From NCBI GenBank assembly GCA_902728285.1, contig CACVBU010000491.1, positions 434,001-498,000 on the forward strand: a stretch of 64,000 nt of DNA. Direction: 5' to 3'. A program made the position numbers and the translations under genes. Below are positions 35,643-61,232 of this stretch, one piece after another; position 1 is the first letter of the stretch, and each line of letters opens with the position of its first letter. The notes under the pieces are model-generated. The model ran no database searches and was not told where the DNA came from. It worked only from the letters and a program-made list of their open reading frames with translations. The DNA is from Clytia hemisphaerica (taxonomy: Eukaryota; Cnidaria; Hydrozoa; Leptothecata; Clytiidae).

Positions 35643-35864
35643 ACCTTGGATGCGATGGACCACCCTATTGTTTGGCTAGTCGAATCATAGAGAATAATCC
35701 TGACCTGTACGATTGGGCTGTTATGTTACCAGGACTTGGCCACCTAAGCATGAATCAAGTCAAATCCTATTTTCAGGTACATTTTTTTGTATTTACACCA
35801 TAAATATTTCATGTGATCATTTATGATTTAAATCTGACAACTTTGATCATGTACATGGAGTATT

Positions 35865-35991
35865 CACCCGTCAATGGAAGTAGTAACTGATACGCATCAA
35901 TACGATGCGCTCAAATCAGACTGATGCTTATCAAGTTGATTCGCTGTTCTCGTGCGCTAGAGCATAGCGCGACTGATAGGCATCAGTTACT
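35865..35991 (+). repeat. Left TIR of element C
   Basis: 127 bp starting CACCCGTCAATGGAAG. It contains internal inverted blocks (AGTAACTGAT / ATCAGTTACT) that could act as repeated binding sites. It is 122/127 identical to the inverse of 61106-61232. Confidence 0.93.
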
Positions 35992-36680
35992 CTTTTCAAC
36001 GCAATGAGCATGCGCGTAAAACGCTTTAACCATATTCAAAATGGTAGCAGTAGCTGTAGCGTTAATGGCGGTAAAAATATTCGCTTGGATTTGGATGGAT
36101 GATGGAAGCAACGTGACGAACGTGACCCCTTTTGTTTGGACTTTTGGAAGATGATATCTTCTGTTCTCACTATTTATGCTGTACTGTGTTAATCATGTTT
36201 TTTAATATATCACATTCACATTGAATAATCATTGGATTAATTTAAGATTACACCACCGAGCGAACATCTTGAATGAAATTATATGATCTTGCATGATTTT
36301 TAATATCCAACGACGCTGTTTTATTTACCCGCAAGAGATTCTATAATGGTAGATTAAGGAGCTGCAGCACGGCATTGCACTGCATGCACAGTACGACCCT
36401 GCTCTGCAGCCCGGCGCACCGGACACAATAAGTGGATGTCGGGTGTGTCAGAATACTTTTTACCACTGCACAGCCCCAACACCGGACTTATGAAAGTCCA
36501 AAGTTCAATGTGTTCAGTGTGCTGGTCTGTAACTTTTTATTGAATGTAGATTGTAGATAGAATGTAAATTAAGTTGTAAGTTAAGTAATATGTTGTTTTC
36601 TTTTCATATACAAAATTGCCATACCAGAAAAATTTGCTGTCTAGCGTTGATGAAAGTCACCCCTTGCTTATGAAAGTATA

Positions 36681-37060
36681 ACCTCGATTGACAGTATCAA
36701 GTTAGTGCCTTGACCAGACGTAGACGATCTCAATCGAATGGAATGAGGAATCGACGATCGAACCAATCAAACCAAATCGAACGCAATCAACCGATTGAAA
36801 TTCGATTGTCGAAAGCAATTGATTCTCAATCGAATATTACCACTATGTATGGATAATGGGTCTTAGAACCTTTTGATACGTAAAATATAGATAGATTTCA
36901 GATTCGATTGATGTTCAATAGACCTTTTTTTAAAGAGACAGCCATGTTGAATAATATGTCGAAAAAAAGGTCTATTGCGTTCGATTGATGTTCGATCGTC
37001 GATTCCGTTCGATTGAGATCGTCTGGTCAAGGCACTAACTGGATAATGTCAATCGAGGTT
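36681..37060. mobile_element. CGATTGA-rich foldback MITE
   Basis: The arms start AACCTCGATTGACA and TTAGTGCCTTGACCAGACG and recur inverted at 37010-37060. The interior is made of CAATCGAA-type repeats. A related CGATTGAA-rich block is at 18.7-19.05 kb, and partial arms recur near 37.26-37.38 kb. It lies upstream of the KDZ coding start. Confidence 0.65.
36842..36897 (+). repeat. Shared tail sequence with GATA microsatellite, copy 2
   Basis: GGATAATGGGTCTTAGAACC followed by AAAATATAGATAGAT; pairs with 35586-35642. Confidence 0.5.
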
Positions 37061-38390
37061 CAGAGGTTAGGATTACAGAAGTCTGCCTTACTGTGCCACA
37101 GATTTTACAGTTAAGTTCCGTAATACAACTCTTAAGGTAGCTGATCCGGACAGGACATCAAAGGGCGTCAAACACTCTTCTTTGCTTTACGTTAAATGCA
37201 ATCGAACGATATAATCGAATGCAGTCAAACAACAATCGAACCAATCAAATATTACCCAGAATTTTGATGTCGATTGAGATTCGGTTGCGTTCGACAATCG
37301 AATTTCAATCATTTGATTGCGTTCGATTCGGTTCGATTGGTTTCATCGTCGATTCCGTTCGATTGAGATCGTCTGGTCTTGAGCACCCACCGACACGTCT
37401 GGTGTATATAAGGGAAAGATACTTTTTGACACCAGACAAAAACACTGGACTGTCGAGTGCGCTGACAGACAGGTGGACACTTCTAAAATTTGTTTCAAAT
37501 TTTTGCTGTTTTGGTTGGTCAGGCATTTGATGGCTACACAAATTTCCCTCCATTGATGCAAGTTTACTCGATCTCACGGTAGTCCTTTAGGCAGGGTCCT
37601 ACCATTTTGTTTTGATTGACATCTACACCACAGCTTTGTTCTTGTTTACTTCATAGAAATTCTTTCGTAACCATTGAAATCAACTTAAAAAACCTTGGTG
37701 TTGTAAACATCAATCAAGATGGTAGTAGGATCTCTACAAAACATAATGTAACACAGCAGATTTCTAATGACACATACATCATCATTCATCATTTTGTTTA
37801 CATTTTGTTTGAAATTGCCTGTTAAGATGAGCTCAAATGAGCACATTGAACTGCATTGAATACACTTTATCAGAAAGTATAAAATCAGGGGTGAATCAGG
37901 AGGTAGACAAACACTGAACTCTAAAAAAAGTGGCTTGATAGATCCTAGCCAGTCCCCGAAAGCTCATTCTAGAAGGTTAGAACAATGGCATTGTTTACCT
38001 CCCAAAATAAGAAAAGGCTGAATGTTAAATTAAATGAGTAGATGAGTTTCATGAAAATTTCTATTGTGTCACTAAATGCCTAGTGCGCATGCTCATGAAT
38101 CAGAGATTTTCAATAAACTTGAAAATTGAAATAATTGAAATAATTCCTATGGGAATCAATTTTTTTTAATAACCATAATTATAGGTTTTATTTTTTAAAA
38201 ATTTGTGTTCTTCCTCAAAGAGAAATCTGCTCCCTCAATGAATGAAATTGTACATGCCAAATAGAATGATTTGAATTTACAAACAAAAATGCACAAAAAT
38301 GATTGCTGTGTACTTGAAAATTATTAGCAAAAAAGTTTGTTTGAAGTCTAAATTGATGAATATAATATAGATTGTTATTGTTTTAAAGGT

Positions 38391-41300
38391 ATGCAATTTT
38401 CAAGAAAAAGAAATGCATCAAAAATTAAATCAAAATGGATTGGATGTGGGAAAACAAAGACCAAATTGACAGGTCCACCAGAACGTTCCTCCCACCAAAA
38501 GCCTAATGATACTTCTAAATTGCCACCTGATGTTATTAATACTGATGAAGAAATTGAAGTTGGAAATTTCCACAATTTTGACGAGGAATTGATCATACCT
38601 AAGACTAAGAGGCAGTGTTATGGTGTGAGCAAAGAAAAAGAATTTAAATGTTGGGAGAAGCATAACATTGACTATTGCTCCCTTTATTCAATGAAGTTTG
38701 ACACTCTCCCAACATATTGCTGCTTTTGCAATGGAGAATTCAGTTCAAGCTTTATATGGTGTAAATCATGTGGACCTCTCTCGTTTTATTGTCACGATTG
38801 TGCAAATAAAGTTCACCAGAACACTCTATTTCATTCCTTGGTCGAGGTGAAGGTAACAGCACTCTTTTTATTTTTGTTGATTTCTGAACTAATTATTCTA
38901 TTTTACTAAGCTTTTTATACAGGGAAGTAAAGCTTTTGTCTCAATTATCCATTTTTCTATTCACTTCAAATACAGAAAGTTTATACATGCTCATTTTACT
39001 TTCTAGGTTGATGGAAGTATTGAGTCATTTCAGGTCAAGTCCATTTTGCAAAGCGAGCATACACGAAAGTGCTTATCAGCTTATTCAAGAATATTGACTG
39101 TCATCTCAGAAACAGGTTTATAGATTTTTATGAGCATGCCTTTTCATTAGGGGATGCCAACATTTTGGATTTGCCTTACATATTGTGTTGTGTTGTCTTA
39201 CTTACTAATTGTGGAATAAAATGCTATGTGGGTGGTTTTCATGAAATTTTTTAAAGGGGGGTTACTATTAAAATGATGGGGGTCAAAGTTTCCATTTTGA
39301 ACGTATGGCTACAACGGGTAACTGAAATAATTAAATTGATTTTTTGAAATTATTGTTAATATATATATTGTTAAATAAACTGAAGCATGACATTTATTGA
39401 ACGTTTGCTTTACTACTGGTCTGGTCTAAATTGGCATTCAGAGTCTTAAAATTGGGGTTAAGCACAGAAGAGTAGATAAAAAGCCAAAAGACTTCATTGT
39501 GTGAATATGTTGATTGTTAGATTTGTTATTTTTTGTCCTAATAGTCACTCATGGGAAGATTGAGCTTATTAAAAAAGTAAAAAAGTTTCCAAAAAGTGGT
39601 TTGTCTTTTCAAAATTCAAATTTTAGGGCTTTATACTTTCTGAAGCTTGAAGTTATCTCCAAAACAATTTGTTTTTTCTCTTTAATGTTTCAGAAAACTG
39701 TCCATATTTTATGCATATTTTATCATAATATTGTACTCTAGGTTCCAGTTACCAATGTGTTATATATTTTTGCAAATGTCAAGAAGAGTTCAATACATTG
39801 ATACACCTTGATTTATGGCCAGTGACACCCTTGAAGCCAAACACAGTTTTATCAATAAATTTGCTGCATCTGTTTGTATCATTGCAATTAGAAGGGAAAA
39901 TATCTTTTACATCTTTTTGTGATGGCCTATCATGGAAAAGTGGTGTGGTAGACTCTGATCTGGTAAATTCTTTTTCATATTTGTTTTAGAAAAAAAGCCC
40001 TCTTTTTTACATTTCTTGGTGAAAATATTTTAAACTAAAGCTTGTATGCATTTGTGATTGGCACAAAAATGGAAAAGGGTGTAGACTCTCTTCTAGACAG
40101 TTAAAACAAATTAACATACCACATACAATTGACTTTTTCAGAGGAGGCACCTAAACCGCATGTCGCAAACTGATTCATTGGACCAATTTAGACATTTCCG
40201 TCGGCAACTAACCAGTCTGAAAACAATATGTGGAAATTATGATGGCTTAGGAAAGTGTGCATCCTGTCCAAAGGTAATAAGTCAATAATAGGTTTCAGAC
40301 TTAGCAAAGAACAAAACTAATCCGTAGATGGTATTTTAATTTATATATACTTTTAATTGGCTTAGAAGTGATGCAGTGTGAAAATTCAGGTTCAAGCTAA
40401 TTGCAATGTTTTTGTTATTTTTAGGATAATGGTTGTGTCTTTTATTGCCTTGATGCCAATTTTGGCCTTGTGCTTAAAGCTTCTGCATCAAAATCAAAAC
40501 GACTTGCCATTCGGTCTGAAAACTTGTTCATTTTGGATCAAGATGTCAAAGCATTTATGGAAAGTTATGATGACTCGTTGAAAACAAAGGTATATAGATT
40601 GACACAAATTATAATAAAAATAAGATAAATGAACAGAATTTCTCAAAATAGTTTTACTGATTAAAATCTTATTACAGGATGCCAAATTTTCACAACAACA
40701 TACTGTGAACCCCTCCTTTACAAAGGTAGGGGTAGAGCCTCCAAAAAATCGGGGAAAATAATATAGGGAATAGGGAAAAAATCTTATAAAAGGAGGGGTA
40801 GATTTTCAAAAGGAGGACAAAGAATTTTGAATTTTTAGAGGGAAATTTGTAACAATAGACAGCAGCTTAAAACATGAATTGTATACCCTGGAGTATATAA
40901 TATTTAATTTAATTTAATGCGTCTGCAGATGTCATAATCATTCTTTTTAAATCTTAGGATTGTAGTAACTTTCAAGCTGGAAACAACTTAAGATCCAAGC
41001 GGAAGACAAAGAAGCTCAGTGTCACAGGAATATTTGGAATGTCATGCCGGCACGAATTCCCAAAACTTTTTTTGAACATGCAACATGGTGAAAGGTAATA
41101 TCTATTTACAACAGCCTGACAAACAGTGGTTAGTTAAAATCTTTGAAATATAATTTTCCTGAAAGTACATGATATTAGATACATTACTTTTCCGTCAGAT
41201 TCTTTCCCAATTTCTGCCATACCATCTAAAACGGAAACCAAGATTCTCTTACCAGAAATTTCGTTGAAATGCATTGTTTTTGTCGAAGATTTCAGAAATT

Positions 41301-44300
41301 TTGATACTATGCAAATTCCCGAATTCCGACTTGCGCACCTTCTGCCATCTAGCTCCTTCGTCAATTGTGAAACCCCCTTCAAATAGGGTTGTTGTACGTT
41401 GTTATATTGAGAAAAAAATTGCACTTTTGTGTTTTCAGACTTGGCTATGCTGTACTTTTACTTGAACGCATACTGAAGGAAACCGAAAACAAGAACTTAA
41501 ACATTCACATTATATATGACATTGCTTGCGTTTTGAAGTCCCATTTGCAGGTTTTACTTTACATAATATTATTAGAGTAGTATGCTGCTGTACTACAGCT
41601 AAAATATCCCATCAAAGCCATTCAGTTCTTTTTTTAAAATGTTGATAAAAAAGGAGAACCTTCAAGAGGCATTGATACTGTGTACTGAAATGACACTAAA
41701 GTCTGTCTCGAAATAATTTGCAGCTGGAGAAAAAAATGGCTGTAACTTTTGATAGAATTCGAATCAAGTTGCGATTTTGTGCTCGTTAAAAAGATATTCG
41801 TGAGTGGGATATTATCAAGTAGAAAAATTGAGAAAAAAAAGGAAAATGAAAATGAAAAATGAAGAAGAAAAAAATCAACTTTTTGTAGAAATGTGGTATA
41901 TTTACCATTTTCACAGGAGTGACTCTTCAATCTTAGATCATCATCAATGTGAAAAAATTTTATAAAAGTATTCATTCAATCAAAAAATATCAAACAAAGT
42001 TTATTACTGGTTGATCGACAAAAGGCTGTTTTTTTGTCGTTTTTTACCAGTTTTTACTATTTTATAGAGTCAACCAGCAATAAACTTTCTTTGATATCTT
42101 TTGATTGAATGAATATTTTTGAATTTTTTTTTGACAGTGATGATGATCTATGATTGAAGAATCACTCCTGTGAAAATGGTAATTATACCACATTTCTACA
42201 AAAAGTTGATTTTTTTCTTCTTCATTTTTCATTTTCCTTTTCCTTTTTTTTCTCAATTTTTTTACTTGATAATATTCCACTCACGAATATCATTTTAACA
42301 AGCACTTAATCGCAACTTGATTCGAACTCTATCAAAAGTTACAGCCATTTTTGTCTCCAGCTGCATTATTCCATCTCCATTATTTCGAGACAGACTTTAC
42401 ACTACTTTTTTTATTTACTATATTTTTAGAAAAAGAAAACATTTAACAAGTATCAACACTTCAAGTTTGGTATCCCAGTTTTCCATTCTTATGGTCATAA
42501 AGGAGACTGCCAGGTTATTAATATGCTAATGATTTTATATGATTTCAAACAGTTTAGTTTTTTCAGTTTGGCCTTTTTCAATTTACTTTGGACTTTGTCA
42601 CAAGTGGACTCTCACCCATTTCTTTCAAATCTTTGCTTTTTGAAAGAAATATCCCACGTTTTTACAGATACCTCAAGCTTTTTATAAAGCTTATAAAAAT
42701 AAGGTTCTTTGAGAAAGGAGAAGTCTGTATGAATACATTATGTAAAACACTTTACTTTGAGACTTTTTAAAAATATATCCCAGCATCTAGAATGACAGAT
42801 GGGCTTTCTTGAAGTGACTGAGAAAGAGCTACAATGTGATTTAAAATCTACCAGTTCTTTTATTTACTCCATTAATCGATTATCAGGTCATTGTTCCCAA
42901 CTCATACGTTTCATATTCTTTTTCTTAATTATAAGGTGAAAAATTCAATAAGGAGATTGGATACATTCGGACTGATGGATGGAGAACTAATGGAGAGATT
43001 ATGGTCTTACCTTCGATCATTTTCAAAAATAACAAAGGAAATGACCCCTGCCCACCGCACAGATTTGCTAAGTGATGCACTGATGCATTTTGGCTCTAAA
43101 AAAATGGGAAACATCGGTATTTGTTACTTTCTAAAACCTTAGCTTCTGTTATTTTGGGTTTTCAATACGACATGATTTTTGGTGTTGCCACCAAAGTTGT
43201 GTTATTTGAAAATCATCAACAAAAATGAAACATTTCCATACCAAAGTATTGTACAGCCTTAACTTGTATTTTCAAACATGTTCAAACATAATGATTTTAG
43301 CGGTACTCAAATAAAGCCACTATGGCTAAAATTCCTGATAAAAGGCCTAAAATGTTAACACAAATAGGGGAAAAGTTATCCAAGTATTCTATTTGTTCGA
43401 TTTCTGTCTCTTTTCGTCTCAATTTTACGGAAGTTTTCTTCTATAATATAAAAAATATTGTTAAGGCTCATTTGTGGAGTAGTTTAATAATCTAAGTACT
43501 TTACTGAAATCAATTCTATATCCTAAAATCTTTGTAGCCCAGTTGTTATCGTGACCCGATTATCAATTTGAATCACCTACTTTTTTACATAAAACTATGT
43601 TCTTTCAGGAAAATACCTTGTGTTTTTACATCACAAAGCAACCGAAACTGTAAATTCTTGCAACACAGAGATTGAATCGATATGCTCAAAACTACCTGGT
43701 AAATAAATGTTTTGAATTAAAACGTTTGCTTCTTCTATTAATCGTACTAGATCTTTGTAAAAACAGCTATAACTGCAATGTCTTTTTGGTTATATTATCG
43801 TAAAGCCTTTTATTTTTTGCTTATTTCTGATTATGACTTTTTTCTGTGTTTCTAGTTGTTGTGAATGAGGAAATTATCAAAACGTGGAAAATAGAGGAAG
43901 ACAATATCGTAAGCAAGAACGGAAAAGCTCTAGAAGCAGGTAACTACACTGTTCCTACTATGTACTACTACTACTACTACTGCTACTACAATCAATATTT
44001 GATGACACACACATCGCAGCTGATTAATTTCTATCTACATTAGGTTTTATCGCCACTGTCGAAAGGTCAACAGTATATGTAAGGGAGTGAATAATAGGGG
44101 GGGGGTAATGTGGTTCTTCGAAAAATTATCAACAGATAAAAAATGTTTTGGGTGTCTCATTAAAAAGAGTTTTCAAAGATTTTGTATGTAATCTTTTTGT
44201 TCCTCTTCAGTTACAGGGACTATTTGACTAAACTATCAAGGAGACTTGACATGACGAATTAACAGCTCAAAAAGACAGTGACACAAACAAAGACAATGAC

Positions 44301-46825
44301 AAAAACAAAAACAAAGACAATAACAAAAAGCAAAAACAAACACAACAGACAATGACGCCTCTGTAATTTAGCTTATGGAATTTTCGTGGAAATTTGATTT
44401 TTGAGGGTTTGAGTATCGTCCGCGAATTAGGTCTTAAAGGAAATCTGGGAAGACTGTTTTCCGCGAAGTAGAAAAATAAATCAGCAATGTCAAGTAACTA
44501 TCAAAATCTTTACTAGCATCCAATCCGTAATTTAATGACTAAAATTCGAAATCCGCGAAAGTCCTTGTGAAAGTTTATCCCATTTAAAAGGTTGACTTAG
44601 TTTTATTAGTTCTGTTAGTTTCTGAAAAAACATGTCGGACCTGGTTAATGAAAAAGGATGCACTGCACTGTGTTTCCATCATTCTTACTTAAACGGAAAC
44701 ATGAAAACTACTCTTCAATTCTTATTCATTCAATTTCCGTTTTCTTCAGCACCTGCAGATTGGAAGCACTCCTATTACCTCAAACTTAAAGATTTCTACA
44801 AAGAGTCTGCTTTAGTTCTAATGAGCGAAAAAGTATGTGACGCTGCAATGCACCAACGTAAAGCTAAAAGGTAAATGGTTAAGACAAATCATAATAAAAT
44901 GTATTCTTTCATTTTATTTATCATTGAAAATTTTTTTAATCCTTCAAAATCTTTCACATACTGTGGAACTGTATATTATAGAAGCAAATTATGTCTTCTT
45001 TCTGACCCTGATGCTTTTAAAGAAAGTTTTTGACCTCTAACGTAAAATGTTGCACTTCTACTTTTCAGACTCGAGCGAAGCTTAACATCGTTTGAAAAGG
45101 TTCATAAAATAGCTAAAAGATGGAAAACCACAGAGAGCCAATTTCGCAATCAACATCTGTCTTTTTTGCAAGAAAAGTCGAACGAAACAGCATCCACACT
45201 GTACAGCAGGTGCTCCGAAAGACTAATGTTGCTAACTCTAAAGAAACGATATGCAGGTAAGTGTTTTTAGTGACACCTATTAACATTCTATTCAAAAATC
45301 TCGAGTTACCATAGAAAATTACAAATTAGGCGCGTTGATACTTTAAACGTTGTAGTGTATGAGGAACTTTCAATTCAAATGATAAAGTGAAGTGTGATGT
45401 GTCGATTTGGTTGTAATGAAGTGCAATAAAAATCCGTTTTTCTACTTTTAGATGGTTCAGCTATAGCAACGAGGTTGAGCAAACAAATCAATAAAGTGTG
45501 CAAAGAAATAAAGAATTTATTGGCTTCATACAATTCCATGCGATCAGAGATTTCGCCTAAATTCAAACCTGTTGATTATAAAGAGGCTCTAGATGTCAAG
45601 TCTTCAATATATAACGAAATAAATCTTGTATCCAACTTGGATGAGGTAAGTGTAAAAGTGTGTAAAAAAGGTCATAAGTAGAGGAGCAAAAAGAGAAATC
45701 TATTAGTTTGAGCTAAGCCCGGGGGGGCACTTAAGGTAAATGACTTACCAGACGTTCGGCCCTTAAGGGTCGGTTTTTCATAGTTCAGTTAGTGCACTGT
45801 AAGGGTAGGAAATTACAAAACTTCACAGAACTGCACTGTAAGGGTAGGAAATTGTAATAAAAGGCCAATTTTTTGGTAAAATTGGCAAAAAAATTGGGCA
45901 ATTATGGAGTAAAATTGGTCAATTTTGGAGGAAAATTTCCACATTTTCTTGGAAATTGCAAAAATTTCGCCCTTACGGGCAAGAAACTTTGAAAAAGTGC
46001 ACTGTAAGGGTACGATTTTTCATGGAAATTCACTGCACTGTAAGGGTCCGATTTTGGAAGCCAAATTTTGGGCCGAACGTATGGTCGTTTTCAGATCGAG
46101 TGCCCCCCCCCCCCGGGGAGCTAAGAGATTGGGTGAAACGTTCGAAGTATTTCGAGGGTCAATCGGTGCAAGTTTAGTGTGTGTAAAGAACCATCCATTG
46201 ATGGTACTAAGTCTTTAAGTTCCAACCGGGTCTTCCTATAAACTTTCGACCACATTTCGATATTGTCAAATTTTCTTCAAGGACGTTTTATGGATGAAGT
46301 CTACTATCGCAAAAAAGTGTCCTTCATAATGGTTTGGTCTCAAATTTGAATCCTTACAGTTTCTTCTCTCCTCTTTCATTTTAGGCAAGAAGTTCACAAG
46401 TCCCTATCAACGTAGTGAAGTCACTCGTACAATTCTACCTCAGAAAACAAAGAGCACAAGAAGAAATAATTATCGTCGAGGAAGAAATGAGATCGACATT
46501 GCACTTTTGGGAAAATCAATTGACTTTTCTTGATGAATGTGCTTCACACCAAACTTCTGTTGGGATTAGATACCTCTTAAGAGAAAGAATCTTGATTGTG
46601 AAGAACTTCCTTGGGGATTTAAAAAAACTCTTTGAGTTTGCTACCGAGCCAGTAGAACGAGTAGAAATTAATCACACGAATAATCATATCTCCTTGAATG
46701 GCTCCGAAAATGAAGAGTACCTATTCAGTGATCAAGATTTTTCGAGCGATGAAGAAGCCATATCATCTGGTGACAGTGACAGCGACACTGGTGACTCTGT
46801 TTTAAGTGATGACTTGTACATATAA
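38391..46825 (+). CDS. KDZ (Kyakuja-Dileera-Zisupton) transposase, 16 exons
   Basis: Exons are 38391-38852, 39007-39115, 39742-39962, 40142-40273, 40425-40589, 40678-40725, 40958-41094, 41439-41550, 42430-42513, 42936-43116, 43609-43698, 43856-43939, 44750-44870, 45069-45256, 45452-45645 and 46385-46825. All have GT-AG borders and consistent phases, giving about 922 residues with no stop. Exon 1 has a zinc cluster (CCFC, WCKSCG, CHDCANKVH); exon 3 has CKCQEEF and LWPVTP, both typical of KDZ proteins. Catalytic acids are D in LDANFG (codon 40452), D in YDIAC (41518) and E in DGELMERLW (42984). FHSYGHKGDCQ is also diagnostic. The C terminus is coiled coil ending in an acidic tail. An upstream non-coding exon is possible, because TTTTAAAG before the ATG resembles an acceptor. 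The frame appears intact. Confidence 0.93.
41695..42401. mobile_element. Foldback element in a KDZ intron
   Basis: Two arms of about 330 bp are near-complementary over their whole length around a centre near 42,040. The outer ends are TAAAGTCTGTCTCGAAATAA and its inverse. The arms share TGTAGAAATGTGGTATA and GTTACAGCCATTTTT-type blocks in opposite orientation. It lies wholly within the intron between exons 8 and 9 of the transposase, and the transcript could form a very long hairpin. Confidence 0.8.
43960..43992 (+). repeat. TAC microsatellite
   Basis: A run of TAC trinucleotides just after a transposase exon. Confidence 0.7.
45718..46117. mobile_element. Poly-G/poly-C ended MITE with 8-bp duplication in the last KDZ intron
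   Basis: It starts CCCGGGGGGGCAC and ends GTG-C-run-GGG, with subterminal inverted AACGT/CGTTCGGCC blocks. It is flanked by GAGCTAAG at 45710-45717 and 46118-46125. The interior repeats GCACTGTAAGGGTA. It is a relative in style of 24961-25368. Confidence 0.8.
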
Positions 46826-47089
46826 ATTATTTTGCCAATGATGTTTGCTATTTTTTACTGTTGTATATAACTATCGTTACAAAGAAAAGCATTTTTTACC
46901 TGCGTCTTTTTCTTCTCTGATGTATCTTGGTAGTGGTTCTCAAAATACCCTGAAAGAAGTTTATTCCGAACTGAATTTATGGGCTTTTGTTTGAGTTACC
47001 CGTATTTAGTTTAAGCAATCTGATTAAATTCATTCCCCTCAAGTATCTTTCCTTCATTACACAATTTCGCCCATATCTTTTCTACTTTG

Positions 47090-47377
47090 CTAAATACCTT
47101 TGACGCAATCGTTCACGATACGTGTTGAGGTGGATAGCTTAGTATGAAAGTATCCCTCGCTACTCTCTCGCTTTTCTAAATACCTTTGACGCAATCGTTC
47201 ACGATACGTGTTGAGGTGGATAGCTTAGTATGAAAGTATCCCTCGCTACTCTCTCGCTTTGCTAAATACCTTTGACGCAATCGTTCACGATACGTGTTGA
47301 GGTGGATAGCTTAGTAGGAAAGTATCCCTCGCTACTCTCTCGCTTTGCTAAATACCTTTGACGCAATCATTCACGAT
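47090..47377. repeat. 86-bp tandem repeat (about 3.3 units)
   Basis: CTAAATACCTTTGACGCAAT starts at 47090, 47176, 47262 and 47348, an exact 86-bp period with very few differences. A detached partial unit resumes at 47664 after an inserted MITE. It lies just downstream of the transposase stop codon. Confidence 0.9.
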
Positions 47378-48965: not shown

Positions 48966-49235
48966 GTTGTACACATTTTTTTTTTTATAAGCAACCAGGT
49001 TGCTAAGGCTTGAGGCCTCAAATTTGCCAAAATTTTTCACTATCTCGTAAAGTAAAAGCTTTTTAGATGATCTAGCTATGGCAAGCGATAGCCCTTGACC
49101 CAATAAGCATAAATATGCTATAATATTAGGGGTGGTCAAAGCAAATTTTTCAGAAAATGAGCCAGAATGCTAGCAACCCCCAGGCCTGACCCGAAAAATG
49201 GAGTTGCTTATAAAAAAAAATGTGTACTCAATAGC
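48966..49235. mobile_element. MITE of the TATAAGCAAC family, copy 1 in element C
   Basis: GTACACA, a T-run and TATAAGCAACCAGG at one end; TGGAGTTGCTTATA, an A-run and TGTGTAC at the other. It is nearly the inverse of 50288-50555 over its full length. Confidence 0.78.
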
Positions 49236-50287
49236 TGCATTAGTTTTTAAACGTCAACACTTACTGTTTGCACTGTTTCGAGATTTTTTCTCCAAGTCAT
49301 CTGTGTTTGAAATCGCAACACATTTGTTTATTGCACGCATCTTTTGTTCAAGTTTCCTTACTAAAATCTTTTATTTTAAAGGGTGCCCCTACCCAATTAA
49401 AGAAGATCGATTAAAAGTGACAAAGCAATGCGTTCAACCAGGGTCTGGTTCAACCTTTTGTTGCGTACACGCTTCTATTGCATATCGATATGATTGGATG
49501 CATGCAGTAAACCGCAAGTTTGCTTTCGTTTGGATAGGATAATTTGTCTTACCTTCGACCAAGACATACCGCCACTTCCCAAACCACTTAAAGGGACGGC
49601 CAGATAAAAAATGAAACTTCGCTAAAAGATTCTTTTCATGGTGCTCAGTAAGAACTCCAAATATTTTTACTGATAAACATTCTGAAGTTAAGATATGACG
49701 ATTTTTTTGAAATCTTAGATTTTCGTATCTCACGTTGAAATTTTATTGTTTTCGAGCATAAATTGAATTTACAAATCTACATATCTCAGCTTTGAAAAAA
49801 GGTAGCCTGTAAAATTTGGAGCTTTTGCTATGGATCATGGAAGGAATCTTTAGGCTAGATTTTAAGTTTTATGTATCTGGTTATCCATTTAAGAATTTGA
49901 TCGTATTTTTATTAGACACTCGCATTCTATTTCGAGTTTTGATTAAATTACTACTAAAACTAAGTACTACTAATGTCAACAAGAAAACCTTGTATAGGGT
50001 ATAGAAGCGTTATTGTTCTATTTAAGTGTGCTCAGAATAGTTAAAAGCCTCTTTTCGTCTTTTTTTTCATGAGAATTTATTAGGAATGAGCTGAAGCGAA
50101 AGAAATTATTTACGTCCATTCGATTCGGGCAAATAAGCTTAATCGCTTAGATTTTAGCTTATTCTAAAGTCAAAAAATGTTAATTACAACTGAACAGTTG
50201 TTCATTCCAAGAAATTTGAAATGATACCTTATGCATCGCTCTTTTTTACTTAAAGCGACATTACTTTTTGACGGTTTTTCTTAATTT

Positions 50288-50555
50288 ATTTGTACATTTT
50301 TTTATAAGCAACTCCATTTTTCGGGTCATGCCGGGGGGTTGCTAGCATTCTGGCTCATTTTCTGAAAAATTTACTTTGACCACCCCTATATTATAGCATA
50401 TTTATGCTTATTGGGTCAAGGGCTATCGTTTGCCATAGCTAGATTATCTAAAAAGCTTTTAATTTACGAGATAGTGAAAAAAAAAATTGGCAAATTTGAG
50501 ACCTCGAGCCTTAGCAACCTGGTTGCTTATAAAAAGAAAAATATGTATGTGTATT
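50288..50555. mobile_element. MITE of the TATAAGCAAC family, copy 2, opposite orientation
   Basis: GTACAT, a T-run and TATAAGCAACTCC, then CATTTTTCGGGTCATG; it ends AACCTGGTTGCTTATAAAAA. It shares TTATGCTTATTGGGTCAAGG with copy 1 inverted, so the two copies make a 1.3-kb spaced inverted pair. Confidence 0.78.
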
Positions 50556-51165
50556 TAAAATGTGTATTTAGGTATCATTGGAATAACGGGTTAGAGTAGG
50601 TGGATTAAGAACTCATGGAAAACACTCCTTGTTAGGTTATCAACTTTTATGATGGATGGATATCTTTTGGAGCTAAGAAAGAAGTTAACCACCTATTCTG
50701 GGTCTGTTGATTAGAAGATAGAAAAACTAATTTACTGCACATCCAAATCTTCACAAAAAATTAGTCATTTTCTACAAAGAACTTTTCAACAACTACTACC
50801 GAAAAAAGACATTTTAGTGTAAATTTTAGTATATAAGTTTTTAAATAAAAGTTGACGCTCTCCAATTCTTTCCTCAAGGGGAATTCCGATTTTCTTGCCT
50901 TTTATGAGTTTCTTGTTGACAAATAATTGTAATAATAGAACTATAGAAGGCGTCAACTTTTCTACTGTTGTTTGAAGCCTGAATAGCGAAACTTGCAAAT
51001 TTTGGCATTATTTACGGTTAACGTAATAAGGGCCGACGTTAAATTAAAAACGACGTAAAAAGGGCCGATAAAGCTATTGAAGATTAAATTTTACAATATT
51101 GTTATAAAGTCACGTCATGCATACCTCTACTCAATTTATTACGATTTTACAAAAAATTGGGCCGC

Positions 51166-51239
51166 CGGGCGGGTCAGTAGAATATAACAAATATGGTTCG
51201 AAATGAACCATATTTGTTATATTCTACTGAACCGCCCGG
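51166..51239. other. Long near-perfect hairpin
   Basis: Arms of about 34 bp (CGGGCGGGTCAGTAGAATAT ... GGTTC, and its complement) pair around a 4-5 base loop, with one unpaired base near the stem foot. It lies between the transposase and the homeo/HMG/chromo gene and could be a transcript-end hairpin or a small foldback element. Confidence 0.75.
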
Positions 51240-52228
51240 CTCACCACGCCTAGAAAAAGTGAATGAAATTATTCTTTCTCATAAAAAATGAATGCCGAAT
51301 GAAAACACACGTCAACGCATATTATTTTTTCTTCAAAAAAAATAAATGTATCTAAAATAATGTTCATGCTAAAATATATTTATGTTGCTTCTTTTGAAAA
51401 ATAGAAAAACATAAAAATAACATCAACTACTACACGAAGCTCCAAAATAATTTAAAGGCGGCCTTCGACAATTACAAATGTATATCACCAAAATGTACCA
51501 TCATTATTCTAGGGTGAAAAAAAAACCAGAAAGGCTGAAAAATTGCATTCAAATAAATTTAGTTCATATGTACTATCAGTCAATTGTCCTTTGGGTAGTG
51601 ACTGTTTCAAAATATAACGACAGTCTTTTGTTGTTGCCTTATAGAATAAACAAAAAGGATGATTGATTATCAAGTTCTGCAGTTGAAAGTTTATTGTCTA
51701 TTGCTCGAACTCGATTAATAAAAGTCGGTCACAAAAAATATCCAAAGAATAATGGGAAGAATAAACTCTTCAAAGACTAGCAAAAACCAGCTTAGATGAA
51801 AAAGGCATCAGATATTTATAAAAATGCAGAATAAAAGGCTTTTCTTACAGTGGGGATACCCTTTAACTCGAACACGCGAGGAAAAGCAAATATGTTCGAG
51901 GTATGGAGAATTTATCTCAAAGTTTCTTTCATAAGATCAGGCAGAAATTCATATTTTTCGAGGTATAGAAAGGTCCGAGGCATGGAGACTCCACTGTACA
52001 GTACTCTTCTGTGCTTAATTGTAGGGGGTCGAATAAGCAGGGGATCGACAGTCCGGTAGAAAAATCATAAAATGGGGTGGCCATAATGAGTGATTTTAGT
52101 GATTTTCCCTAGGAAAATTGGGGTTAAAATGGGGGATGATATAAAGTGATTTTGAAAAAAAATCGAAAAATGGAAAATACCCCCTCCCTTACAAAAAGCA
52201 CCGGAGAGTACACCGAAAAAAAACCTTT

Positions 52229-55200
52229 TCATTTTAAGGAGCACTTATAATATGAAAGGATGTGCTCTGGGATGTGCTCAGCTTTCTCCCACGTCAACTT
52301 TTTGAACCCGATCCATTTTACAAAATATCGTTCCCCTCCTTTCACCTTCCCGTGTGTTTTTATGTACTCAACATAGCCCTCGTTTCTTTCATCCTTCTCT
52401 TTCACTTCCTTCAGGGTGACTTCTTGGTCACTAGCATTTGGCACCAAGTCGTCATCGTCCAACATCCTGCAAATATCTTCCAGACGATCGTCAAAGGCTG
52501 CCTTTCTTTTGCGATGGTTTTTTTTGTGGGTAACTTCTTCAGGTTCTGTACTCACTTGGTCAATTGCTTCCACGTTCTGACCTTCAAGTTCGATATTCTG
52601 ATCTTCAATCGGTTCTGTATTTTTCATTTGGTCAATTGCTTCCACATTCTGACCTTCAAGTTCGATATTCTGATCTGATTCTGATTCTGTATTTTTTTCT
52701 TCGAGAGGTTTTTCACGTGTCTTGACAACTAAAATGAATTTTTTTTCAATTTTATCTTAACTTAATAAAAACACCTAAAGTCTTTTCAGGATAAATGGAC
52801 AGTCTTTTTTCTTTTGTCTCTGACTTTTCAAGAAGCTCTTCAATGCTAATGAAGTTTTATGGTGTAAAAATCAAATTCATGCCATGCTTGTATCAAAAGC
52901 TCATTTTTTTCATCTTCTTTTTTCTTTACTTTTGCTTAATTCTTTAAGACAAATACTAATGTAGAATGTTGTGCTTTTGAATATTTTTCCAATGGTACCA
53001 AAAATAAAAAAGACTGCACACTTATCCTGAATAGACCCCAAACTAACTAATTTTCGAAAATTATCAACCCAGGACATTCTTAGTGCAACCCTCGCTCATC
53101 AATTTTTGGTAGTTGTCACAAGATACAAGACTTTGAAGTTGAACTTCACTTTTCAAAAAGTGCAAAGAACACATTAAACAGAGAGAAAATTTTTCTCTCA
53201 AAGGGTCACGATTTCCAAAAATTTGGTGAAAATAAAACCAAAATTTGGAAAAAATAGACCAAAAATAAAAAAAGTCTCTCAAAGGGTCCCAAAATCATCA
53301 AAATTTAGGCTCGGACAAAACCGTACCTCGCAAACCTAGTACCCCCCGGATTTTACGACCTAATTTGTTATTGAAATACTTCAAAAGCGATTTTTTTGTA
53401 ACACAGTCAGATTTTAATAAAATAGGCAGTTTAAAAAAAAAAAATTCGTATCGAAAAAGCTTGAAAAATGCTTAAAATTTAATACCTTTTTACATGTTTT
53501 CACATTTTTCGAAAAGTATTTTTAATTCCAAAGTTAACAAGTATATATAAATGACCCAGAAATATATTAATAATGTCGTTGATATAACATCCTGTGAAGA
53601 CTGCTAGTGAGATAAAAGGTAAAAAAATTACCAAGGAATGAAATGTTTTCCATGTGCTGTTTAATTATGTCCAATTCCCAATTAGCGCATTTCGAAGGGT
53701 TTCGGAGCTCGAAATCGTTTGGAAGGCCATCAACTTTTATTTCACCCTCTGATATCATTTTATAAGGCACAGAGCTTCTATTTCCAATTTGCTTGCCTGA
53801 AAAGGTACAGAAAGTGAAAAGTTTTACTTTTTATTTCAGAATTTTCCTGCAGCTAAAAAATACCACTGCCTGGTTGTTATACTTTGCATGACGCCTCCTT
53901 CTCTCCTTCATTTAATTTACTTAAAGAATTTAATAAATAATGTCCTAATAATACTTACGGAACCTGCTGTTCAATAAATCTGCAACTTCTTGTCGGACAG
54001 ATTTCGAAGGTTTCTGATCGGCCTTATTGTGGGACGTTCCTTTAAGAGAAACAAAACAGTAAATTTTGTCCTGAACAAGATAAGATGTAAAGTTGATTTC
54101 AGTTACAATAAAATTAACAGAGCCCCCACAGAGCTTTACCGTTTTCTCTTGAAAAAGTAATACACGTTTTTTTCAATTAGAACAAGTTTATAAGAACACG
54201 GGGATGAAGATTGGCCAAAACCTAAGAACAAATTAAGACTGAGCCTCAGATTTTAGAAATTACAAATAAAGTACAGATTTTAACGGATTTTAAACCATAT
54301 TAAGTTCTTAAGTAAAGAAACTAAGCGTATTTTAAGAACATCTTAAGAACATTTTAGCCTGAAAAATTCAAAAATTCAAGAACAGCCCAGTCTGAACAAA
54401 GATTCATTGGTTCTTAGTTAAAAAAAAGCTTTTGTGTTAGAATTTATCTTAGAATTACGAGTCAAGACTTACCATTAATAAATGTCGAAAAATCCCAGTA
54501 TAAATCTTCTTGGGCTTCCCAAAAATCACGTGCTTTAGTACTGCCGTACGCGTTTATGTGCCTCCCCATTCTAAGAGAATCAGCCTCAATTACCAAGGTG
54601 TCGACGCCGTACGATTCCAACTCCGTGCACTAAAAAAGAAAAATTTGAATCTGTATTATAAGAACCTTTCGTAACGTATAAACGAATACTCATGCCTGCA
54701 CTATACACTTAAGATTTCTCAAAAATAGACGCAAAAGCTAAACGTATGAAATATACGTTCATCGTTCACGTTCAATTTTTGATTTATATCACTCGACATA
54801 ATATCTCTAATATGGCTGAAAACTCACTCATCTTTTACATCACTTTTTAAACTTCTCTAACTATAGTGAAGCTGTAGAACTTTCTATCTTCTCCCAATAT
54901 TATTTACCACTATCCTTATAGCTTTTATACTTTTATACACCATCCACTATCCTCTATTTACTTACTAATTGTTTTATTTTGTTTCTGATCGAAGTCAACT
55001 TAATTTTCTGCGCATCAGGTGAAAGGTCTTCAAATTTTGGTATAACCACTTGAGATGCCCTTTCGTTGAATTCCTTTCTCTCTTCTGCGGAGAGATCAGC
55101 CCAAGCCTTGTTTGCCGCAGCCACGGAGTTTGTTGGGTTGACCTTGCCTGTAGAGAAATAAAAAAAATACCACCTTAATTATGTTTAACGCATAGCAATG

Positions 55201-55833
55201 AGTAATGCAAAAATAGAGTTGTGTACATTTTCTAGGGGATTGCGTCTGAACTAAAGGGTAATATGATTATCAAAGAAAAAACATATCGGAAAATTTATTG
55301 GGAACCTGGTTTATTGACCTAAGAACTGACCCCAGTGAGAACATTCAATGAACCTTTGGTATCCAAACCAAAGATCTAAATTGGTTAGATCTTAGATTAC
55401 ATGCTACTTTCAACATACCTGCTAATTCTTCTCTCCTAAACAAATCATAGCCTCGTGGTTTTCGAGTCAACACTTTTTCTTTTTTGCTATCATCCGTAGG
55501 CTTTTTCTGGTGGTTTATCCAATTCTATAAAATGAATGGATACTAAGGAATTCAAATACTTTAAAGAAAAAGATAAAACATTTTCAAAATATAAAATCAT
55601 AACTCTCGCCGTGGTTGAGCAAAATCCGAATTCGACCCGAAATAGACTGCGACATTTTCATTAGCGAAAATTACCTTTATTTGTTGTGCAGTCAAACCAG
55701 TCCTCTCAACTGCTTCTTCGATCAATTTCTTTACCTCTTTATGATCTCGTCCATAAGAGGTCATCCCTCTTTCATATAACTCATCAAGAATTTTAACTTG
55801 CTCTGGAGTCTTGATAACACGTTGAACAGACAT
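52229..55833 (-). CDS. Homeodomain-like / HMG-box-like / chromodomain protein of element C
   Basis: Seven exons: 55833-55675, 55524-55419, 55147-54966, 54629-54473, 54039-53959, 53796-53632 and 52728-52229. All have GT-AG borders and consistent phases; they sum to 1,350 nt, or 449 residues. Residues 1-65 resemble a homeodomain (TPEQVKILDELYERG, then GLTAQQIKNWINHQKKP); the invariant Asn of WFxN appears replaced by His. About residues 75-125 resemble an HMG box (KPRGYDLFRREE, NKAWADLSAEERKEFNERAS). The middle has no recognised domain. The last exon has a 16-residue duplication (DQNIELEGQNVEAIDQ) and a C-terminal chromodomain (YVEYIKTHG, RYFVKWIGF, LTWE). It probably acts in the nucleus on DNA or chromatin; a role in element targeting or TIR binding is inference. 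Confidence 0.88.
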
Positions 55834-56508
55834 TTTTATATGTTTCCTGTTTAAAAGATGACAGTGAATACACACTATGTTATAAGAAAAGGGCTTCTGT
55901 GAGAGTATCACAGTAAAAATTGGCCAATTCGTAAAGAGGCACTATATATGAGTATGTTGCCATGGTGATTACTTCACCCTCAAACTTAGCAAGCTCTCTT
56001 AGCATAAGTGTACTATTCTATTCTTATTCTTATAAAAACATGTAAATTATAGAATTAGTGTTGATGATAACAGGTTTCCTTCCCAAAAAAGAATCTGTAA
56101 TGTGAACAAACCCATATCCATGACTAACACTTTAGACATTGGCACCGACATAAATATAATTCAGACTCTCTGTTAATCGATTTACTGTAACATTTACGGT
56201 TATAATTGTGATCATTCTACAAAAAAAAGGAGATAAAAATATTCAAACCGAAAATTGAACCGTTCAAATAAAGCACAAATAATACGCAGATATATTCGAC
56301 AAGAAAAATGGGATATCGAAAATTATTCAGTCGAGCTTGATGATATTCAACGAAGCTACGTTGAATATGTGGTTTATAGTTTTAAGCTTTTATTGTACTT
56401 TTTGATTAAATGTGTTATCTGGTTAAAATTTTCGCAAAATGTGACAACATGTAGGGCTCTGAAATATAAGGCTAATTGACAAAGTGAAGATAAAAATAAA
56501 AAATTCCA

Positions 56509-59500
56509 TCATGCGGCTTCAAGCATTACTTTTACTCTATTTGCAAGAAAAATATAAGCGGGTCTTTCTTTTGGGTTTCGTTTGAGACAGTGATCAGCAA
56601 GAACCGTAAGTCGAGTTTCCAAACAATCGTCGATATCAAAATTAATCTTTCTCTTTAGGATAAGCTTGAGTAATACACCGAATGAAAACATGTCAGAACC
56701 AAACTGACTTTAGCACCTTTGAAAAGTTCCGGAGCAAAATGGTGTTGATCGTGGAATTTCTTCAATACATCTGCAATGTTGAACTTAGCAGTGTCAACAC
56801 GACAGGCAAACGTAAACCCAATAATGATGGGCTTGTAGCCATCAAATATGATGTTGTCAGCAACCAAATGGTTGTGCAATACGCCCTTTTCAAATAAAAA
56901 ATTCAGTCCTTCAATTATGCCATTGAGCAACCCTTTCAGTTGCAGCAAAGAACTAATTGGTTTCACTATCTTTGACAGGGTCATGCCAGATTGAAATTGA
57001 AGAACATGTGAAAATTTTTTTGAGGAGTGCACTAGCCCAATAGTATTTACTATGTTTGAATGTTTTCCAATAAAAGTTAATAGTCGGTGCTCGTGGCTTA
57101 GAGTAGCCAGTTCTTGAGGCCCAAAGGCACCATCTAGGTGGTATTTACACATCACAGTTTCACCATCCAACAAAGAGACTTTCTCTACTGTTGAAAATGA
57201 TCCCTGATGGATAGCAATTGGTTTAATCCCATGAAATTGAGCAGGATCTAAAAGAACAGGTTCCTGATTTTGAAGGAGATAGTCGCCTGTATGAAATGCA
57301 TTTGTGAAGAGAGAAGCATCAACTAAAAATGTTGACCGTTTCCGTCCAATTTGATCTAGAATTTTTAGCTTTGTAAAGTGAGCATTTCTAAGGGTTAACG
57401 AAGCATTCTTTTCTTTCAATAAATCTATCTCATGGTCTTTCTGTTTTTGAATTTCTTTGAGTGATTTGATATGACTCTTTGCATTTGAAAGCCTTTGCTC
57501 ACTTTGATTTTTGAGTGTCCACTTAAATTTCTTTCGAGCATGGGTAACCTATAACACAAATATATTGCTGTTGTTTTATCAATTAAAGATTTTTAAATTC
57601 AAAAAAAATTCTTTGTCTCTTGTTTTTAATTTCATGGCCGAGTTTAATTTTTAGACGTGAACAAGATGAAATATTGCTCCATAAATCTCTTTAAAAATAT
57701 AGTAAAGCATTTGCTTTTGTTTTTTTGGAAGAATTTTTGATAGTAAATTACGAGATGAAAAGAAAACTACATACTTCTTCCTCTCCACTGCTTTCATTAC
57801 TACTGCTTTTATCACTACTACTTTCTTCCACGATATTTTCACTGGTACTCTAAAACAATGATAAAGAGGTAATAAAAAGGCTTTTGTTATGAAACGAAAA
57901 TAACCATTTATTTGGTTGCTTATGCCAAAGTATAAAATTAAGATTCTAGCTCAGTATTTATTCTTTGTATTTTATTAGAATGTACTCTACCCTTTCTATT
58001 ATTTCCAATGGTTTTTTCTCATTCTCATCTATTTTGAGGTTTAAAGTGACCTAAAAAGCACGAAGAAAGCTTATGCCAAAGTATTAAATTAAGATTCTAG
58101 TTCAGTATTTATTCTTTGTATTTTATTAGAATGTACTCTACCCTTTCTATAATTCCCAATGGTTTTTTCGCATTCTCATCTATTTTGAGGTTTAAAGTGA
58201 CCTAAAAAGCACAAAGAAAGTTGATCTTAAAATGGGTAAATATTGAAAAACTAAGATTCAAGGCTGGAAATAGGTTAAAAAAAACTGATTTGTAAAGCTG
58301 GGTTGAGTATTTTTCAAATTTTAGACAGTTTTACACAAAATTACATACATTGAATCGTGATGACAGGTCTGCTCCAACAGTTGTTAGAGTCTTATCAACG
58401 CTTTCTTTTATAACTGTTTTGGAGATTTTTTTCTAGGAAAAAATATAAAAACACAGTTATATAATAATAATGAAAAAGTCAAAAAGTTCTGACTTGCAAC
58501 AGAAAGCTGTGCACCAAACAAATACAAATAAAAAGGCTATTAAAAAATAATGAAGAACTTTTCTTCTAACCTCTAACTTTTTCCTTATCTTTTTCAAAAT
58601 CTTTGTCTTTCGTTTCGATGGCTTCTTAATTACAGGTTCAATGCACTCAAAAACTTGAGCCCAGATAGCTTAAAATTGAAAGAGAAAAACTATTAATAAT
58701 GCAATAATACTATAATGCAAATGGGGCTAAAATGAAAAAAAGAGTCTCGTTTCCAAATGATATTCTAAAATACCAGCAATATTTCTTTTTCGGATCAGAT
58801 TAGTTTAGATTTTTGTGGCAATTTCCCTCCTAATATTGCTTCAACTTCATTTCAGCATGAATTTCTTTGGTATCTATTTTGTAAATTTTAAAAGGTTTTT
58901 ATGTACCTATTGAATTTAAAATCTTTCAAAACCTTGTTATTTTCCAGAATCATTTTTTGTTTTTTATGTACGAAACAGACCATATTACTCAAACAAGCAA
59001 AAAATTATGAAGAGTTTGAGAAGCTTGATCAAGGAAGTTCTATAAATTTCGATTGGAGAAAAGTTCAATGATTTAGAAGAATAAGTTTGATAGAAACCTT
59101 TCTACTTTTACTCTGCCAGAGAACATTCCATTTGAGGAATTAGAGGAAATATGCCACAATTAAACTAGAGTAGGCAGATTTTCAAAATTTTCAAACTTAC
59201 TTGAATTTTACTCAAATTTTTACCATACCTTAGAGTTCAAAAGTTTGGCTAATTACTCAAACTTACTCGAACTTCATGTTTTTGAAAAATTGTGAGGAGT
59301 TTGAGTAATTTGTAAACTTTACAATGCTTCCGGGCTTTTCTGGGGTCTATTTTTCGTAAATCTAAAACAAGTTGCATGGACACTATTAAGTGCCAGATTG
59401 GTCATATAAAAAATTATCTGATATTCCAATGACGTCCCGGGACCGGGAGTCATGCCTCGGCAAAAGGAGGTTACGAAACGACCCTAGGTGTGGCCCGCAC

Positions 59501-61050
59501 AATTCAATTCAATTCAAAACATACATTTACCCGAAGGAAGGGACACCAAGTTTAGAAACCTAATTACAATTCCCACATTTTTTGTCTCAGGTTAAATATC
59601 ACTGAGGGTAGTTGGTTTTCTAGAAAAAATTGGATTTGTTCACATCCCAGCACATCCATGTTTTTGCGAAGCCCACACGATGTGGGCCGCCCTAAGGTTT
59701 TGTTACGAATCACAACGAAAATATCCGTACACAGATATTTTGATTTGATGTCAAAATTGAATATCTGTTTTCGGATATTTGCCAGACTGTTTGATGGTAA
59801 ATTGGCCTGCTGATTTAGAATTCTAGCACAGCACATGGTGCTTATGAATTATTTTTGAATAACTCATTTACATTTATAATTTTTTTTGTTAAAATGTTTT
59901 TATATTTTGTTACTACTTTAATAATATAGATGGATAGCTGCCAAAACCCCATCCACCGGAATATCAGACAACCAAGAACAGAGCAACATTTTGACTTCCA
60001 AGATCTCAGCATTTAACAACAAATTAGATGAAATCTCTGCAAATGAGACCATGAAAAATGAAAACTTGTTAACCTGCCCTTTTTAATTTATTGTTTCTAT
60101 TCAATCAAAATAGCTAACACTGATTAGGCGGCCATCGAAAAATTGTTCTATTTGTATCACCCGCCTGCATCATATTTTCCGTTGATTTTCTGGTGCAGAG
60201 ACGCGGGAAAAAATCCAGGTAAAGCTTTTAAAAGGTATAGCTTTTTTCTTCATCGCTCTCTGGCAGCCATCAAATAATTTAAACTTGTATTGTTTGTGTC
60301 ACCACTCGCCTCCGACATACTGTCCCAATTTTAAAGAACCCGGGAATTTTTCCGACCGCCCAACCGCCCATCTACCCGCATGCATTAACTCCCGCTGCAA
60401 CGCGAGAGAAACTTTTCAATGGCCACCTCAGAGAGAATTATAGTACATTATCATGACGTCTAATACCATCAAATGGGATTACTTTCATAAAAGGGGTAAC
60501 TTTATTTCAACAGCAGACTGTTCTGGTCTGTGATTTAAAATTTAGCTAGGATATAAACAAGTCATGTCATGACTTCTAGCTTTTATAAATTTAGGACCAG
60601 AAAATGTTGTGGTGATGAAAGTTAACCCAGTAGTAATAGTCATTTATGAAAAAGTAACTCCACACTCAGCAATTGAACCGTATGATCTTGAGGGACTGTG
60701 AATCGCTAAATCCATGAGTGAGGACCAATAGGAACAACAACCACCATTCATGGCATTGGAGATTTGGTTTTAGCCTAGGATATGATTAAATGGACCCCTT
60801 GGACAATATGCCCTGCTCCTGCTGTGAAAGTTTTTTTCTGGAAGTCAAACACAGAAGTCACCCTATTTCCCCACCACATATATAACAAGAATAATGTTAA
60901 AGAATTTTCTGCGACTATTTTCTTCAGAATGTTCCAAACAAATATTTTTTACCAGACAAAATTCCTACCTTCAAAATACAATTTCATAAATTCATCGCTT
61001 TCTTGTTGGTTGGAACAACGTGCACCAGTACTACAGCTATTCGACGCCAT
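56509..61050 (-). CDS. Pseudokinase protein of element C, 7 exons
   Basis: Exons: 61050-60969 (ATG, MASNSCSTGARCS), 58668-58571, 58432-58349, 58201-58142, 58050-57991, 57849-57775 and 57548-56509. All junctions are GT-AG and in phase, giving about 500 residues. The N-terminal part is short helical exons, including a duplicated 20-residue exon and a Ser/Glu-rich exon, then a coiled coil. The kinase-like domain has GSFSTV (Gly loop), VMCKYHL (Lys), VLHNHLVADN where HRD Asp is replaced by His, IIIGFTF where DFG Asp is lost, APELF, and SDMFSFGVLL. It should not transfer phosphate and could be a scaffold. One missing base near 56690-56696 separates APELF from SDMFSFG, so the C-lobe is frameshifted in this copy or there is a sequence error. 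The start codon lies 56 bp inside the right TIR. Confidence 0.85.
57918..58219. repeat. 151-bp tandem duplication containing one exon
   Basis: GCTTATGCCAAAGTAT starts both units (57918 and 58069). Each contains a 60-bp exon encoding VTLNLKIDEN and flanking splice sites. Both exons are in phase, so both may be spliced in. Confidence 0.88.
60125..60360 (+). repeat. Dispersed repeat, copy 2
   Basis: GGCGGCCATCGAAAAATTG start and a CCGGGAATTTTT block near the end, matching 29755-30000. It lies in intron 1 of the pseudokinase gene. Confidence 0.6.
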
Positions 61051-61105
61051 TTTGGAATTTGGTATGTACCTTGGTTCAGAAGCTCAATAGCGGTAAATGA
61101 TCGTT

Positions 61106-61232
61106 AGTAATCGATGCTTATCAGTCGCGCTATGCTCTAGCGCACGAGAACAGCGAATCAACTCGATAAGCATCAGTCCGATTTGAGCGCATCGTATTGA
61201 TGCGTATCAGTTACTACTTCCATTGACGGGTG
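61106..61232 (-). repeat. Right TIR of element C
   Basis: Inverse of 35865-35991 with five mismatches, ending TTCCATTGACGGGTG directly before the GAGTATT duplication. Confidence 0.93.

Follow-up and report, generated by a model that had tools for sequence, protein, structure and literature searches.

A precisely delimited KDZ-superfamily transposon of Clytia hemisphaerica and its recurrent three-gene module with a putative pseudokinase

Previous studies, as far as the excerpted text of PMC12730594 describes them, showed that the fungal Kyakuja elements have 7-bp target-site duplications (TSDs), 5'-CA..TG-3' termini and a KDZ transposase, that the Kyakuja families in fungi are without terminal inverted repeats (TIRs) and carry a TET/JBP dioxygenase, an enzyme that likely aids escape from silencing, and that Zisupton and a Dileera family have 8-bp TSDs. 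In the excerpts of other sources, the Zisupton elements of fish and nematodes have TIRs and a multi-exon KDZ transposase (PMC9297572), KDZ1, KDZ2 and KDZ3 of Cryptococcus neoformans encode a KDZ and CxC transposase between TIRs of 139-241 bp (PMC12810828), and the giant KDZ elements of Ectocarpus range from more than 10 kb to about 30 kb and contain nested transposable elements and, in many families, additional genes (PMC12477816, where a Chlamydomonas KDZ element of 31.7 kb is also cited). A likely KDZ transposase is listed at the Hydractinia sex locus (PMC9926710). Here we describe a KDZ-superfamily DNA transposon of 25,368 bp in the hydrozoan Clytia hemisphaerica, which occupies positions 35865-61232 of the window, the whole stretch of 64,000 nucleotides analysed (C341:434001-498000).

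We consider it probable that this is a giant KDZ transposon of likely cut-and-paste type, whose two cargo genes, one for a chromatin-type protein (the chromo gene) and one for a putative pseudokinase, serve its movement and not the host. The limits of the element and of the gene that it interrupts are as follows.

35865..35991, plus strand: left TIR, starting CACCCGTCAATGGAAG, 122/127 identical to the right TIR
61106..61232, minus strand: right TIR, inverted repeat of the left TIR
35858..35864: left TSD copy GAGTATT, flush with the left TIR
61233..61239: right TSD copy GAGTATT, flush with the right TIR
35645..35776, plus strand: exon of the interrupted gene left of the element, donor GTACAT at its end, start position unsettled
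61649..61940, plus strand: following exon of the interrupted gene, acceptor before its start, phase 0, end approximate

The two TIRs are 127 bp each and differ at 5 of 127 positions, and the termini CACCCGT...ACGGGTG are of the 5'-CA..TG-3' type. Because the eighth base outside the ends does not match in the window element, nor in a complete sister element (C22, below), we take the TSD to be 7 bp; with equal base frequencies assumed, a flush 7-bp match is expected by chance once in 16,384. The flanking coding sequence, as read from the letters, breaks at 35776 and restarts at 61649 with phase 0 on both sides, and therefore the element sits in an intron of another gene. The joined exons had no match in a Pfam scan. 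The complete and precisely delimited KDZ transposon announced in the preliminary description is thus supported by TIRs, flush TSD and KDZ domain; its 127-bp repeats, its GAGTATT duplication, the continuation of the interrupted gene across the element and its three multi-exon genes (15, 7 and 7 coding exons) were all borne out.

The first of the three genes encodes the transposase.

38391..46825, plus strand: KDZ transposase gene, 906 aa, coding exons 38391-38852, 39007-39115, 39742-39962, 40142-40273, 40425-40589, 40958-41094, 41439-41550, 42430-42513, 42936-43116, 43609-43698, 43856-43939, 44750-44870, 45069-45256, 45452-45645 and 46385-46825

Its frame is open over 906 codons with GT-AG borders throughout, and its start accords with the database relative P0007; the open frame reported earlier therefore stands, with 15 coding exons in place of 16. 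The product matches PF18758 (KDZ) at E 1.3e-46 (159.4 bits, cut-off 26.6), beside CxC cysteine-cluster domains (CxC2 39.2 bits, cut-off 27; CxC1 27.8, cut-off 26.9). The retention of D-D-E residues claimed in the preliminary description is consistent with the aligned rows, in which D318 (30/31) and D436 (33/33) are joined by two candidate glutamates, E491 (33/34) and E494 (33/33). Eleven of the 14 splice junctions fall in stretches that align well with Clytia relatives, and the other three (after residues 564, 592 and 760) fall in variable stretches. DNA matches to the sister elements within this gene are mostly exonic: in the C207 element 2105 of 2304 aligned bases are exonic, exons making up 32% of the gene span. 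In a tree that includes no named Kyakuja reference, the window transposase clusters with rows from Clytia and Hydractinia and with one other row. A Foldseek search with the transposase model returned no row at E <=0.001, the 50 rows shown being mainly helical proteins, and the transposase and pseudokinase alignments, scanned against viral contigs, found no relatives there.

The three proteins were each searched against the 417-Mb assembly (951 contigs). With 50 of 254 transposase, 94 of 132 chromo and 92 of 172 pseudokinase candidates scored, the locus counts are lower bounds: at least 14 KDZ, at least 26 chromo and at least 39 pseudokinase loci, the last after 22 rows at 23-32% identity had been left out as apparently ordinary kinases. 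Both cargo genes lie within 40 kb at 10 of the 14 listed KDZ loci, nine of them outside the window, and all 10 module loci show the order transposase-chromo-pseudokinase, the transposase gene pointing towards the two cargo genes. Since the same genes recur in the same order at nine other loci, the three likely move and work as a unit. In addition, a pseudokinase gene lies on the same strand no more than 20 kb away at 20 of the 26 listed chromo loci, against about 0.004 expected per locus. As judged from the sequences, the cargo is a module of the whole lineage and not an accident, which the preliminary description undersold: it had thought a fully delimited KDZ element with this cargo seemingly unusual, and the module is indeed unusual and recurs beyond this copy.

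Selection and terminal boxes were compared with four sister elements, C22, C207, C432 and C254; among the other module loci, C781 and C308 were compared at their ends only, and C662, C899 and C866 lay outside the sequence comparison. Over the three genes the synonymous differences (pS) against the four sisters were 0.68-0.88, at or near saturation, and the replacement differences (pN) were 0.16-0.26 in the transposase gene, 0.24-0.34 in the pseudokinase gene and 0.36-0.39 in the chromo gene; these values come from aligned stretches only, with one stop codon in each of three transposase comparisons. Chromo and pseudokinase rows of two closer copies (C486 and C626, below) were excluded as overlapping, tandem-repeat or short alignments. 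Synonymous sites being near saturation and replacement sites not, the comparison points to constraint on all three predicted proteins.

Five further two-ended elements were delimited.

C22:331262-360317: 29,056 bp, complete, TSD TTCAGCA on both sides
C207:2578968-2607092: 28,125 bp, complete, without matching duplication
C432:1865781-1893452: 27,672 bp, complete, without matching duplication
C781:658573-686673: 28,101 bp, inverted ends, without matching duplication
C308, about 77939-102868: inverted ends, without matching duplication

TIR lengths range from 121 to 134 bp across four elements. A degenerate 21-mer of the ends, with one mismatch allowed, has 26 genome matches (21 exact) against none for the reversed control, and a module gene lies no more than 10 kb from 21 of the 26. 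Within the TIRs we found GATNNNNATC-like boxes at positions 25, 59 and 111-112 in eight TIRs of four elements, the pattern being a loose one ([AG]AT, 3-5 bases, A[TA]C) run without a control pattern. The boxes are exact in the window and C22 save for spacer length and looser in C207 and C432, where AAC ends boxes 1 and 2 and AAT begins left box 1. C308 has boxes at 22, 56 and 109, among further matches, and C781 has three boxes in its right TIR and only the first in its left. Within the window, a stricter 12-mer, CTGATNNNYATC, is confined to the TIRs. The boxes of the window element are:

35889..35898, plus strand: box 1, GATACGCATC, left TIR position 25, predicted transposase-binding site
35923..35932, plus strand: box 2, GATGCTTATC, left TIR position 59, predicted transposase-binding site
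35975..35984, plus strand: box 3, GATAGGCATC, left TIR position 111, predicted transposase-binding site
61199..61208, minus strand: box 1, right TIR, predicted transposase-binding site
61165..61174, minus strand: box 2, right TIR, predicted transposase-binding site
61113..61122, minus strand: box 3, right TIR, predicted transposase-binding site

Because they are so evenly kept, we infer that these boxes may be bound by the transposase, as their conservation suggests. A side observation concerns C207 and C432, whose longest aligned stretch is 97.8% alike: AAAGATT is common to the left flank of the former (C207:2578968) and the right flank of the latter (C432:1893452), neither element having it on both sides, as if by recombination or an assembly switch.

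The two cargo genes lie to the right of the transposase gene.

52229..55833, minus strand: homeodomain-like / HMG-like / GTF2I-like / chromodomain-like gene, 449 aa, exons 55833-55675, 55524-55419, 55147-54966, 54629-54473, 54039-53959, 53796-53632 and 52728-52229
56509..61050, minus strand: pseudokinase gene, exons 61050-60969, 58668-58571, 58432-58349, 58201-58142, 58050-57991, 57849-57775, then from 57548 downward

The structure of the chromo gene agrees with database proteins: P0002 (Clytia hemisphaerica, 394 residues) is identical throughout to a product that skips exon 6, P0001 matches part of the full-length product without a difference, and the acceptor of exon 5 at 54039 is fixed by the database isoforms. 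Its GTF2I-like repeat scores above the cut-off, and its chromodomain-, homeodomain- and HMG-box-like matches are all below theirs; P0001 too shows the GTF2I-like and chromodomain-like matches. The product is predicted to bind chromatin.

The pseudokinase gene matches Pfam Pkinase at E 8e-12, and a structure model of its relative P0040, which covers 53% of the window model at 99% identity, has a predicted kinase fold with IRAK4 nearest (E 1.8e-12). Among 12 aligned rows, all 11 that reach the region have HNH at the site of the HRD motif and Gly for the Asp of DFG (G-F); the invariant Lys and the catalytic-loop Asn are retained. By these residues, the kinase-like cargo is a conserved putative pseudokinase, both catalytic Asp (HRD and DFG) being absent. 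Its first exon starts 182 bp inside the right end of the element, so that the gene is probably driven from the TIR. An entire exon of this gene is doubled by a 151-bp tandem duplication (57918-58220, 96% alike), which is also present in the C486 copy.

Further copies, for which the preliminary description had proposed to search the assembly, were recovered in part: the 417 Mb contain four exact copies of CACCCGTCAATGGAAG, two of these being the window's own ends, and the window-family TIR was found elsewhere at four places, C486, C626, C13 and C561. With gaps ignored, the right end at C486 has 15 mismatches in 12,258 aligned columns (about 12 kb of the right half) and that at C626 has 13 in 5,942 (5.9 kb at 99.3%); C561 has 3 mismatches in the 127-bp TIR and none in the next 173 bases (at least 173 bp of interior); and C13:84534-84824 is a lone right end of 291 bp with no mismatch, which continues 164 bp beyond the TIR, takes in the first exon of the pseudokinase gene and then gives way to unrelated sequence. 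The matches stop at the TIR in C486, C626 and C13, and the outer flanks differ at all four sites. TIRs at many loci without the interior, the finding that the preliminary description thought fatal to its claim, were thus at most faintly seen, right-hand interior lying beside each of the four. The near-identical right ends at other sites read as a recent spread of the family. In its right part (C486:21778-23340) the C486 copy also has two additional short insertions, bounded by inverted ends, that are missing from the window.

Taken together, we picture the movement of the element as follows. The transposase would bind the three GATNNNNATC-like boxes of each TIR and pair the ends, and would then cut and insert the element with a 7-bp stagger. 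The homeodomain/GTF2I/chromodomain-like protein may bind DNA and chromatin and either steer insertion or prevent silencing of the element, and the pseudokinase could be a binding scaffold or decoy and not an enzyme, for example as a regulator of the transposase or a block on a host kinase. A more specific proposal, which we put forward tentatively and hold to be a little short of an even chance, is that transposition takes three proteins, which have stayed together as an ordered module through deep divergence. Beside the transposase these would be a chromatin reader, to find the target or open it, and a pseudokinase dedicated to regulating the complex or the host. We know of no transposon family that depends on a pseudokinase, and if this proposal were true the present one would be the first known to us.

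Four findings weigh against a mobile element with cargo that serves its movement. The module is missing from 4 of the 14 listed KDZ loci (C797, C672, C820 and C784); a matching 7-bp TSD flanks only two of the six two-ended elements, window (GAGTATT) and C22 (TTCAGCA), the other four being without; the window pseudokinase is frameshifted at about 56700 with a stop at 56655, P0040 matching on to 56509 and the C486 and C626 copies having no stop in that region; and left-end sequence past the TIR occurs in the window only, short repeat matches aside. The loci without cargo would suit the explanation that the cargo genes are passengers, enclosed by chance and kept for a benefit to the host or simply riding along with no part in transposition, and in a brown alga the giant transposons, KDZ included, do carry additional genes according to the excerpt of PMC12477816. 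Such passengers should be set against the identical order and orientation at every module locus (10/10), the synonymous saturation alongside constrained replacement sites, and the presence of the cargo in elements so diverged that, repeats aside, their DNA matches are mostly exonic. Because of the module census and the selection test we rank this explanation below a role in transposition, and consider it unlikely.

We regard it as similarly improbable that the window element owes its full length to an assembly mosaic, in which the left halves of several near-identical copies may have been collapsed at this place. Right-end sequence is indeed present at five or more places (C341, C486, C626, C13 and C561) and left-end sequence at one, and at three of the five the right half is present over some 6-12 kb or more; the C486 copy ends at a single N and the C626 copy at the contig end, so that their left halves are perhaps absent through assembly gaps. 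The in-phase exons and a GAGTATT flush with either end fit a single insertion, however, and even a collapse would leave the kind of element the same, C22 being a second complete one. Least likely of all is a dead relic, inserted long ago and intact in looks only, since the pseudokinase frameshift, the nested repeats listed below and the 5/127 differences between its own TIRs are met by a transposase open over 906 codons and by right ends whose mismatches amount to 0 to 0.22% at C486, C626 and C13; moreover, C13 has the letters of the window's right TIR, and the difference between left and right TIR therefore need not date the window insertion. The suggestion in the preliminary description that the element may still move gains partial support from the open transposase frame, but the frameshifted pseudokinase of this copy speaks against it.

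41719..42365: nested foldback repeat with 296-nt arms, inside a transposase intron
48970..50547: nested inverted-repeat element with arms of about 250 bp, all except its first 29 bases shared by the C486 copy

The remainder of the window holds other features. Rfam at gathering scores gave no match anywhere in the window. A Helitron-like region (4542-10973, minus strand) contains a 1049-aa open reading frame (ORF) with Helitron_like_N (E 7.7e-34) and DUF6570, overlapped at about 6418-6455 by a second long ORF that by eye resembles a helicase with endonuclease. The regions 13423-14130 and 33446-33883 have a distant protein family in common (23% identity, E 1.3e-7), the latter lying upstream of the exons interrupted by the transposon. 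On the minus strand, an ORF at 31829-32467 resembles by eye a reverse-transcriptase fragment, with no Pfam match, and a 256-aa ORF at 62769-63539 has weak SRF-TF and PHD-like matches below the cut-offs.

In comparison with the described systems, to the extent that the excerpted sources allow, the window element resembles Kyakuja in its 7-bp TSD, CA..TG termini and KDZ transposase; it differs in that the Clytia elements have TIRs of 121-134 bp and, as cargo, a putative pseudokinase and a chromatin-type protein instead of TET/JBP. The label Kyakuja was rejected for the 127-bp TIRs. With Zisupton it shares the TIRs and the multi-exon KDZ transposase, and the labels Zisupton and Dileera were rejected for a TSD of 7 and not 8 bp in both the window element and C22. 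The Cryptococcus KDZ elements likewise have long TIRs and a KDZ and CxC transposase, but they measure about 9-11 kb, have TSDs of 8 bp or 4-8 bp, and the excerpt of PMC12810828 mentions no such cargo. The elements of Ectocarpus and Chlamydomonas agree with the window element in giant size, nested transposable elements and additional genes; they are algal, and a pseudokinase or chromodomain module is not named in the excerpt of PMC12477816. Among the literature matches listed, drawn from open-licence full text and so no proof of absence, there was no KDZ element with a pseudokinase and chromo module. The lineage described here, an animal one, keeps a constrained gene pair unlike the fungal TET/JBP, one member of it a predicted pseudokinase, and with ends, boxes and copies defined in a jellyfish used in the laboratory, one can test whether the accessory genes of giant transposons belong to the transposition machinery. 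The superfamily is a known one; the module is unusual and conserved, and the mechanism proposed for the cargo is inferred.

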